Below, piece by piece: positions 24,567 to 39,670 of a DNA stretch of 64,000 bases (position 1 is its first letter; each line of letters opens with the position of its first letter). The DNA lies in assembly GCF_010091925.1 (NCBI RefSeq), contig NZ_WVID01000001.1, forward strand, positions 186,001 to 250,000, read 5' to 3'. The notes under the pieces were generated by a model, which was not told the DNA's origin, ran no database searches, and saw only the letters and a list, made by a program, of their open reading frames with translations. Source of the DNA: Nostoc sp. B(2019). GTDB lineage: Bacteria; Cyanobacteriota; Cyanobacteriia; Cyanobacteriales; Nostocaceae. The translations under genes and the position numbers were made by a program.

Positions 24567-25667
24567 TCACAAAGTTAGAGAGGATTGAAATGGATAAACG
24601 GGAAGCTTAAAAGCAAAGATAGCACCACTGGGTACTCTGTTCTCTGCCCAGATTATACCGCCATGCGCTTCAATAATTTGGCGAGATAGGTAAAGCCCCA
24701 ACCCAGAGCCTTTGCCTTGGCGATCGCTACTTCCCTGGTAAAATCGCTCAAATAAGTAGGGGAACTCTTCAGGCTGGATACCCGCACCCGTATCTAAAAT
24801 TTTGACAACTTGATAGGACGTTTGGCCTGTTAAGACGATTTCAACATGATCACTACGCCGGGAATGGTTAATAGCATTCACCAGAAGATTGATAAAAACT
24901 CGTTGTAGTTGTAGGACATCACCCTTAACCCATAGCGTTCGCCGCCAATCAGAGTCACCATAACTAAATGAGAAATAAACCCGACGATTTGCAGCTAATT
25001 CAGTGAGGGTACTAGCTGTTTCCTCAGCCAAAACAACTAAATCTACAGGTACCAAATCAAGCTTTAAGCCTTCAGTATCATTGCGATAGACATCTAATAA
25101 AGTTTCTAAGAGTTGTAGGGAAGTCTCATGGCTGCGTGCCATCGTTGCTAAAACTTTCTGCTGTGCTGGTAAGACTGCACCAAATTTTTCTTGTTGAAAG
25201 GCCTTAAGAGCTTCAATTGCTCCCAGTAGCGGTGTTTTCAGATCGTGAGTAAGTGTGGAAGCAAAATCTTCTCGCAATCTGACTAATTCTTCTTGTGCTT
25301 CTAACTTTGCCTTAGTCAGGGCGATCGCTTCTTGTGAGCACCGAATGCGATCGCTCAAAAACCCTGTTACAATCAATGCCATCGCTGCGATCGATCTACT
25401 TGCGACTATGGAAGCCTTCATCACTTCATTTCCTGGTACTACAAGGTTCAGCATCGTTAAGCACACAGCCACGAGTGTAGCTTGAAAGGTGGCAAGCCGC
25501 CCCAGCCAAAAATTTGCCAATAAAATTGGCCCCGTGTAGAGATACCCAAACACGTATTCATTTGGTGTAGAAAACTCTAGAGTCAAAACAACTATAAACA
25601 GACTAGCAATGAGCAAAGATTTGCCCAAAGGCGATTTTTTATTAGGTAATTTAGCTTTCAAAGACAC
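24567..25667 (-). CDS. sensor histidine kinase
   Basis: A 366-residue membrane kinase. About four hydrophobic helices occupy residues 15-110 with no large periplasmic sensor, followed by a short coiled linker. The HisKA domain has the phospho-acceptor in STLTHDLKTPLLGAIEAL, and the ATPase domain has N box VFINLLVNAINHS, G1 DTGAGIQPEE and G2 GKGSGLGLYLSRQI. It pairs with the NarL-type regulator directly downstream. Its position divergent from kdpA, whose own KdpD lacks a kinase, makes a link to potassium control conceivable but unproven. Confidence 0.9.
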   Translation of the reverse strand: MSLKAKLPNKKSPLGKSLLIASLFIVVLTLEFSTPNEYVFGYLYTGPILLANFWLGRLATFQATLVAVCLTMLNLVVPGNEVMKASIVASRSIAAMALIVTGFLSDRIRCSQEAIALTKAKLEAQEELVRLREDFASTLTHDLKTPLLGAIEALKAFQQEKFGAVLPAQQKVLATMARSHETSLQLLETLLDVYRNDTEGLKLDLVPVDLVVLAEETASTLTELAANRRVYFSFSYGDSDWRRTLWVKGDVLQLQRVFINLLVNAINHSRRSDHVEIVLTGQTSYQVVKILDTGAGIQPEEFPYLFERFYQGSSDRQGKGSGLGLYLSRQIIEAHGGIIWAENRVPSGAIFAFKLPVYPFQSSLTL

Positions 25668-26103: not shown

Positions 26104-27837
26104 ATGTTACAAGGATGGATTCAAATTGTTCTAACGTTACTCATCGTCATAGTAACTACTCCCTTGTTTGGGAGATATATGGCTCACGTTTTTATGGGAG
26201 AGAGGACGTTACTCGACCCAGTGATAACTCCGATAGAACGAATGATTTATAGCTTTAGTGGAGTGCGATCGCGTAGCGTCTCCGTAGGAGAATCGCTTAC
26301 GGCGGGGCGTAGCCCATCGCAAGATGAAATGACTGGGTGGCAATATGCTAAAGCTGTGCTGTATAGCAATCTCGTCATGGGGATTTTGGTTTACCTCATT
26401 CTCATGACTCAAGGATGGCTACCACTCAATCCCACAAGGCTAGGTGCGCCAAGTTGGGATTTAGCACTGCATACTACTCTTTCCTTTCTCACCAATACAG
26501 ATCAGCAGCACTACTCTGGTGAGACAACTCTTAGCTATGCCAGTCAAATATTTGCGCTTGGTTTTCTAATGTTCACTTCTGCTGCAACAGGTTTATCTGT
26601 TGGTATCGCCTTCATTCGCGGTTTAACTGGCAGACCTTTGGGCAACTTTTACACTGATCTTACAAGGTCAATTACACGAATATTACTACCCATGTCCATC
26701 ATTGGGGGATTGTTGTTAATCTTGGCAGGTGTACCAGAAACCTTGGCAGGCCCAGCAACAGCAACCACCTTAGAGGGGGCGACTCAGGTAATTGCCCGTG
26801 GGCCAGTTGCCCACTTCGAGATTATTAAAGAAATTGGAGAGAACGGCGGCGGTTTCTTTGGCATCAACTCTGCCCATCCCTTTGAAAATCCCAATGGTTT
26901 CTCTAACTTGCTAGAGACTTGGGCAATGATTTCCATCCCCTCGGCATTGATTTACACCTACGGTGTGTTTGCCAACAATCGCAAACAGGCGTGGTTAGTG
27001 TTTTGGATGGTGTTTGTGATCTTTGCCTTTTTAGTAGGCATTGCAGCAGTAGGTGAGTTCCAAGGAAATCCCCTTGTTAATCCCCTGTTGGGAGGACAGC
27101 AACCCAACTTAGAAGGAAAAGAAGTTCGATTTGGTTGGGCGCAAACAGCACTATGGGCGGTAATGACTACAGCAACAATGTGTGGTGCTGTAAATGGAAT
27201 GCACGATTCCTTAATGCCGCCAGGTGGGTTTGCCACTCTATTTAATATGTTCTTGCAAATTATTTGGGGAGGTCAGGGAACTGGTACAGCATACTTATTT
27301 CTCTACTTAATTTTAGCGGTGTTCCTTACTGGTTTAATGGTGGGACGAACACCAGAATTTTTAGGACGCAAAATTGAGAAAAAAGAAATCGTCCTTGCCA
27401 GTGTCATCTTGTTAGTTCACCCCTTTGCCATTCTTATTCCTTGGGCGATTGTCTTTGGCTTTCCCGATACCCTGTCAGGCATTAGTAACCCAGGTTTTCA
27501 CGGTGTTTCGCAGGTAGTTTACGAATATGCTTCAGCAGCAGCAAACAATGGTTCTGGCTTTGAAGGGTTAGGAGATAACACCCTCTGGTGGAACCTCAGC
27601 GCCAGTGTCAGCATTTTGGCAGGACGTTATATCCCCATCATCGCCCTGCTGCTGCTAGCAGATAGTATGTCCCGCAAGCAAGCCGTTCCTATGACCTCTG
27701 GTACTTTAAGAACCGATACCAGACTTTTCACTGGAGTTACAGGGGGCGTGATTTTAATTCTTGGTGCTCTTACCTTCTTCCCCGTATTAGTTTTAGGCCC
27801 TCTGGCAGAAGCATTTCAAATTGCCAGAGGCGGATAA
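26104..27837 (+). CDS. kdpA: potassium-transporting ATPase subunit A
   Basis: A 577-residue channel-like subunit that binds and passes K+ through the inner membrane in the KdpFABC pump. Selectivity-filter regions are visible: [51 protein letters not shown] and [12 protein letters not shown]. Ten or so membrane helices. Residues about 54-73, between the first helix and EMTGWQY, are an extra segment ([20 protein letters not shown]) encoded by a dispersed DNA repeat inserted in frame. Reading frame and all filter motifs are intact, so the protein is probably functional. First gene of kdpABFCD. Confidence 0.95.
26265..26320. repeat. dispersed palindromic repeat inserted in frame in kdpA
   Basis: Begins with HIP1 GCGATCGC, continues GTAGCGTCTCCGTAGGAG then AATCGCTTACGGCGGGGCG and ends at CCCATCGC. 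The GCGTAGCGTCTC core is shared with intergenic repeats at 6890, 18534 (reverse) and 20643. GTCTCC-GTA-GGAGA forms a small hairpin. Its 56 bases code for polar residues not expected in KdpA. Confidence 0.75.
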
Positions 27838-39095: not shown

Positions 39096-39670
39096 AAATA
39101 TCTCTATGAGAGTTCAATAAGTGCTAATTTATGCCAAGTCAATATCTATTTACAAGAACTTCTGAATTGCCTAAAAACAATTTATCTCTGTAAATAAAAT
39201 ACTATCTTTAATTTCAGATTTAATATAGTTTTAAAACTCATACAAAAACTAATATAAAAACTCATAATAATTTTTATATGGCTGAGTATTAATAAAAATT
39301 ATCAGGCATGAAAAAATATTTAAAAATATAAAAATATTTGTTTCATAATACAAGCTAAAATTCAACTTGTACTTTAGCGATCGCCCCTGGCGTGCTGGAA
39401 GCGATCGCATCTATCGTCGTAAAAAATAAGAGTGTAAATAAAATAGAAAGCTGTCAAGTCTGCACGCAATGAGTGTCTATAAACTTTTCCTTTCACACTG
39501 ACTCAAAAAAAGCGGCGGGAGAAATGTGAAAGAACGAGAAACTCTATTTACATAAGAGCAAATCCTCTCATCAGGGAAACCTAACAAATATGACGTGTGC
39601 TATAAAGTACCCGCGTCCTTTTTCTTTCCTGGGTTAAAGCCAGAGGTTTACCAAACTCCTGTGAGGTGTT
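39096..39670. other. 575-bp intergenic region
   Basis: The left part (39200-39360) is AT-rich with several ATATAAAAAT-like stretches. Two HIP1 octamers stand 24 bases apart near 39377-39408. The right end holds GAGGTG before the ATG of the next gene. No gene, riboswitch or strong hairpin recognised. Confidence 0.4.

Follow-up and report, generated by a model that had tools for sequence, protein, structure and literature searches.

The insert that lengthens kdpA in this genome is very probably a pair of very small mobile repeats of the SDR5 kind, probably selfish, lodged in a HIP1 octamer. Each copy would add 24 nt after the third of the eight octamer bases (i.e., between GCG and ATCGC), and the unit together with the two octamer halves (32 nt) is predicted to fold as a three-way junction with GCGAT/ATCGC as its closing stem. 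Because such an insertion would restore GCGATCGC on its 5' side only, further units would be expected to stack there. The distribution of units on the kdpA tree suggests that the 3' unit, A, is the oldest and the 5' unit the youngest. In support of this picture, kdpA of related genomes presents a ladder of zero, one, two and three units in 24-nt steps, copies are dispersed, and similar units lie in frame in other genes. As 24 nt make up eight codons, and the kdpA segment has no stop in three of its six reading frames, an insertion of this type can survive wherever the protein tolerates a flexible loop.

The window, by which we mean the whole stretch of 64,000 nucleotides analysed, comes from a 7.43 Mb draft genome (hereafter the window genome) and carries kdpA as an open reading frame on the forward strand at positions 26104..27837. 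The best match of its 577-aa product, subunit A of the K+-transporting ATPase, among solved structures is E. coli KdpA, both by sequence (phmmer E = 9.8e-116) and by fold (5mrw; TM-score 0.86 by query length, with 40% identity over 574 columns). The segment at 26265-26320 (GCGATCGCGTAGCGTCTCC...CCCATCGC) lies in frame within kdpA just before EMTGWQY, a placement put forward in an earlier, sequence-only reading of this DNA and one on which the sequence and the open reading frame agree. That reading took the segment for a single 56-base event; it is better described as GCG + unit B + unit A + ATCGC, built up stepwise from 24-nt units. All parts being given on the forward strand, GCG (26265..26267) and ATCGC (26316..26320) are the left and right parts of a split HIP1 octamer and account for eight of the 56 bases. 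The net insertion is the 48 nt between them (26268-26315), that is, two abutting units which add 16 residues, with the codons for the added peptide (residues 56-71, as placed by the KdpA alignment and AlphaFold2 pLDDT) at 26269..26316. Unit B (ATCGCGTAGCGTCTCCGTAGGAGA, 26268..26291), putatively the later insertion, is common to Nostoc sp. MG11 and is not present in the orthologs of SJRDD-AB1 and LEGE 12411. Unit A (ATCGCTTACGGCGGGGCGTAGCCC, 26292..26315), putatively the first, is found in four of the five members of the genus, those with an ortholog. Removal of both units would leave GCGATCGC at the site and V-R-S-Q-D-E-M in the protein.

The evidence for stepwise insertion is comparative. Among 30 kdpA loci read as DNA, three units (A'-B-A) are seen in Nostoc sp. 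MG11, two (B-A) in the window genome, one (A) in Komarekiella delphini-convector SJRDD-AB1 and in Aff. Roholtiella sp. LEGE 12411, and none in the other 26, and genomic alignments with these closest named relatives (MG11, SJRDD-AB1 and LEGE 12411) show gaps of exactly 24 nt at kdpA. The segment was also sought in the KdpA of distant cyanobacteria and was not found there: units are absent from 110 of 117 aligned KdpA rows (an alignment that counts some genomes twice and takes in paralogs), and the seven rows with units all come from four genomes of the Komarekiella clade, which bears out the earlier view of an insertion, limited to one lineage. G084, the remaining one of the five genomes in the genus, carries only KdpA paralogs, at ~75% identity. 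In N. flagelliforme FACHB-838 the unoccupied position is GTGCGCTCACAAGATGAG, which codes VRSQDE (VRSQDEM), and here GCGCTCAC matches six of the eight HIP1 bases; that kdpA itself once offered a complete, empty HIP1 is something that we infer.

The kdpA tree, built without gapped columns, pairs the window genome with MG11 (98%) and SJRDD-AB1 with LEGE 12411 (98%), and groups the four unit-bearing genomes against N. flagelliforme with a support of only 69%. The simplest history consistent with the distribution of units on this tree would have A arrive first, B follow in the ancestor of the window genome and MG11, and A' come last, in MG11, a possible alternative being one loss at the weakly supported split between N. 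flagelliforme and the unit-bearing four. The loci with zero, one, two and three units form an evolutionary series of very small mobile DNA in a conserved ion-pump gene, and with such a series both SDR-type movement and HIP1 as its target become directly testable.

Though their sequences differ, A and B share one predicted RNA fold, a three-way junction in which the 5-bp outer stem GCGAT/ATCGC closes two hairpins with 3-nt loops; the hairpin stems measure 4+4 bp in A and 3+5 bp in B. When 1.76 Mb of the window genome were scanned for any 5-bp outer stem enclosing a pair of adjoining hairpins, perfect cases came up only for the outer pair GCGAT/ATCGC and only at an inner length of 22 (5/21); the remaining even lengths between 18 and 30 gave 0/39, and all other outer 5-mers 0/18,064. 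The five matches are three copies of B and two of A, and so are not independent. With one mismatch or two wobbles allowed, the figure at length 22 is 7/21 vs 10/2,578. The two extra matches have one wobble each and other sequences. One of them, at 39377..39408 in the window, is a three-way-junction-like sequence unrelated to A or B, with GCGATCGC at both ends and no open reading frame of at least 60 aa over it. The other lies in infB (IF-2) and was rejected as an inserted unit, since an equal-length segment is present in outgroup genera (L366, L367, L368) and the sequence is probably native. This probable native origin speaks against taking every fold match for a unit and, together with the identity of the five perfect matches as copies of A or B, somewhat lowers the odds of the broader proposal put forward below for Nostocaceae. 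Within the A-type units of two genomes (31 distinct sequences), no covariation above that of shuffles was found. We regard the three-way junction as a supported prediction, not as proof.

The units are by no means confined to kdpA. There are 22 A-type places in the window genome (at most two mismatches), four of which belong to B-A pairs, and eight B units, all identical and HIP1-anchored. Across the family, 43 of 135 genomes have A-type units (matching one pattern with at most one mismatch) and 8 of 140 have B units. Among 30 A-type loci, one per genome from 30 of the 43 genomes, 17 sit in frames that run for 150 codons or more without a stop, a count made by frame alone; at least two pairs of these loci (L382/L387 and L403/L406) look like the same gene.

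Three further coding cases come from comparison with homologs, every fetched locus being read by alignment. A PAS histidine kinase of the window genome has 16 extra residues just before its HisKA-like part that are absent in 15/15 homologs, one of them from the same genus. In chlG, eight residues are added in the window genome, LEGE 12411 and also MG11, and 27 of 30 loci are without the insertion. A PhyH-like gene is longer by 8 residues in the window genome and by 17 in G010 (24 + 27 nt), with no insertion in six of eight loci. An empty site can be examined in the window itself, where a histidine-kinase-like open reading frame beside kdpA, on the reverse strand (24567-25667), contains an intact HIP1 at 24720..24727; in K. 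delphini-convector, a 21-nt in-frame insertion falls exactly between the GCG and ATCGC of this octamer and adds seven residues, apparently in the ATP-lid region. A related observation is made at a non-coding site, which holds A in the window genome (C29) and B-A in its MG11 counterpart (C227), the alignment showing a 24-nt gap as well as a 6-nt gap elsewhere. Left outside the set of coding insertions are a glycosyltransferase-FHA open reading frame, an FHA-like one, a C-terminal tail and other open reading frames. A kinase N-terminus of MG11 with A'-B (L348) was also rejected as a coding case, as the gene is out of frame in the window genome and its true start is consequently uncertain. Separately, this sensor kinase N-terminus bears an array of units in several genomes (L348 of MG11, L270, L273, L275 and the window genome, C32 ~149800), and in the N-terminal region of chlG one more locus, from another genus (L288 of G006), has a different repeat in frame in the same region.

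The company that the units keep bears on how they may move. The neighbour of B in the window genome is a complete A-type unit in six of the eight cases and a partial one in two, and all eight neighbours differ. HIP1 sites are common (1,683 in 1.76 Mb), which makes random use of HIP1 by B units unlikely; B may favour sites that already hold a unit, or copies may convert one another. A joint move of B-A as a single piece would agree less well with B parts that are all identical next to A parts that differ.

An alternative to which we give somewhat less than an even chance has units build up through gene conversion over short homologies, or through template switching in replication, among the dispersed copies, with a B-A donor converting an A recipient; it concerns movement only and is compatible with the rest of our main reading. 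The identical B copies beside eight different neighbours are consistent with such a process, as are the position of A' 5' of B in MG11, at kdpA as well as in a kinase gene, the presence of different equal-length units at one position of one gene in the window genome and MG11, and a unit on C56 of the window genome whose arms form a perfect inverted repeat of 13 bp, its MG11 counterpart being ordinary A sequence. On the other hand, B stands alone in four of the seven copies (L271, L276, L277, L278) read outside the genus or in K. delphini-convector, and single units are found in HIP1 sites without a neighbour. The C56 locus (L266, against L343 of MG11) has an A unit whose left arm exactly complements its right arm over 13 bases, and this 13-base perfect palindrome may reflect template-switch correction, in either direction. 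In a large protein that we take to be PfaB-like (C32 ~264971, against L360 of MG11), different equal-length units sit as if one had been swapped for another.

SDR5, the closest parallel for a mobile repeat inserted into HIP1, is reportedly a small dispersed repeat of Nostoc punctiforme and its relatives, mobile and 21-27 nt in length, with a secondary structure that is said to be common to SDR4 and SDR6. The 24-nt unit lies within this size range, the comparison being one of insertion point and size. The insertion point given for SDR5 in the available part of Elhai (2015; PMC4390886) lies between the third and fourth HIP1 base, and the present units also enter between nucleotides 3 and 4 in kdpA, at C29/C227 and in the kinase gene. 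Recent mobility is a further likeness, with presence and absence differing between close relatives at kdpA, at C29/C227 and in other genes. An in-frame ladder in a transporter gene and clustering on occupied sites, however, do not figure in the available part of the SDR5 account (PMC4390886).

Two other families of palindromes are instructive. As described in the accessible portion of PMC10969869, Rickettsia palindromic elements lie in frame in many unrelated genes, and the kdpA units too are palindromic repeats in frame in unrelated genes; the Rickettsia elements, however, measure ~150 bp and encode a conserved peptide, features that the 24-nt units do not share, and that portion concerns a Rickettsia host and mentions no HIP1 target. 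The GTAG/CGTC-tagged REPs of PMC3733652, so far as its available text goes, are likewise small palindromes, some of them within open reading frames, and GTAG types also occur in filamentous cyanobacteria; they differ in their REP/RAYT architecture, and a HIP1 target is not part of that text. In-frame palindromic insertions in genes are thus already known, as the accessible parts of both papers attest (PMC10969869, PMC3733652), and what looks to be new is that in-frame units form a ladder at HIP1 and that later ones gather where a unit already sits. No paper on HIP1-targeted units inside cyanobacterial proteins appears among the matches listed, for which titles and the starts of abstracts were available and few subscription journals were covered.

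It is improbable that the units are themselves REPs of the GTAG type that owe their movement to a RAYT transposase. Unit B does show GTAG directly behind base five, and the available text of PMC3733652 records REPs with this tag from both Nostoc and Anabaena; fixed insertion inside HIP1 is not described there. Unit A is without GTAG at that position, and the five PF01797 matches in the genome (one a fragment with a stop) come from a search that does not discriminate. The PF01797 family also covers IS200/IS605 transposases.

Given that a mobile repeat of the SDR5 kind best accounts for the insert, one may ask what it has done to the pump. KdpA is described as having ten transmembrane helices (PMC6255902, available portion). 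The added residues sit between predicted helices 38-52 and 78-101 of the present protein. By general KdpA topology this loop would be cytoplasmic; the available portion of PMC6255902 does not place it. In an AlphaFold2 model made from an alignment of 35 KdpA (mean pLDDT 70.7), pLDDT is below 50 for residues 56-73, as it is in seven other stretches, and falls to 28 at residues 61-70; the added peptide is predicted to be disordered. Within the clade, kdpA dN/dS is 0.07-0.10 (five pairs), so that the pump gene remains constrained and, by this codon measure, purifying selection is still acting on it despite the insert. The ladder, the KdpA alignment and dN/dS together uphold the proposal of the sequence-only reading that a dispersed repeat entered kdpA in this lineage, adding 16 residues without breaking the gene.

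Its further suggestion that the repeat had been domesticated fares less well, as nothing here points to a function for the added peptide. A selected, functional KdpA loop would agree with the retention of the insertion in all four genus members that have a kdpA ortholog, but its length varies among close relatives (8, 16 or 24 residues), it is predicted to be disordered, the same peptides occur in unrelated proteins, and over the 16 aligned residues of the insert the window genome and MG11 differ by four non-synonymous and no synonymous changes; we consider such a loop highly improbable. The peptide is in all likelihood neutral and disordered, baggage that the pump carries along. Length steps in multiples of 24 nt could also come from plain tandem duplication, or from slippage, in a stretch native to kdpA, but that origin is scarcely credible, given that A and B differ in sequence, that copies are dispersed in the genome and that A' of MG11 is one base off a copy on another contig (C11:56151).

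In its SDR5-like form, the kdpA case offers a simple route by which selfish DNA can lengthen proteins. A broader proposal can be put forward tentatively, and with more doubt than belief: that across Nostocaceae, 24-nt elements (what remains of a 32-nt three-way junction once the 8-nt HIP1 is taken away), defined as much by fold as by sequence, keep supplying 8-residue insertions, being targeted to HIP1, of a size that keeps the frame, and partial to occupied sites. If this is true, proteins would acquire flexible loops that grow eight residues at a time, starting from the element's 5' side.

Two smaller matters concern how such units are counted. The 12-mer core GCGTAGCGTCTC has six matches in the window at up to one mismatch, kdpA included, vs 0.14 expected from dinucleotide shuffles. 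Recurrence of the core in the window, claimed from the sequence at the outset, is therefore far above chance, but the places outside kdpA are three exact (6889, 18536 and 20644) and two with one mismatch (52295 and 59883), not four. By inspection, these five copies are without HIP1 flanks and lie within different repeats, and so are not the kdpA repeat that they had been taken for. Genome-wide, 8 of 29 exact GCGTAGCGTCTCC 13-mers are HIP1-anchored B units like that of kdpA. The spacing of ATCGC after HIP1 was rejected as a count of units, for although it peaks at 24 nt (17 vs ~6 nearby), only 7 of the 17 are A/B-like. Over the same 1.76 Mb, ATCGC is also commoner at 36, 39, 102 and 114 nt after HIP1 than at most distances.
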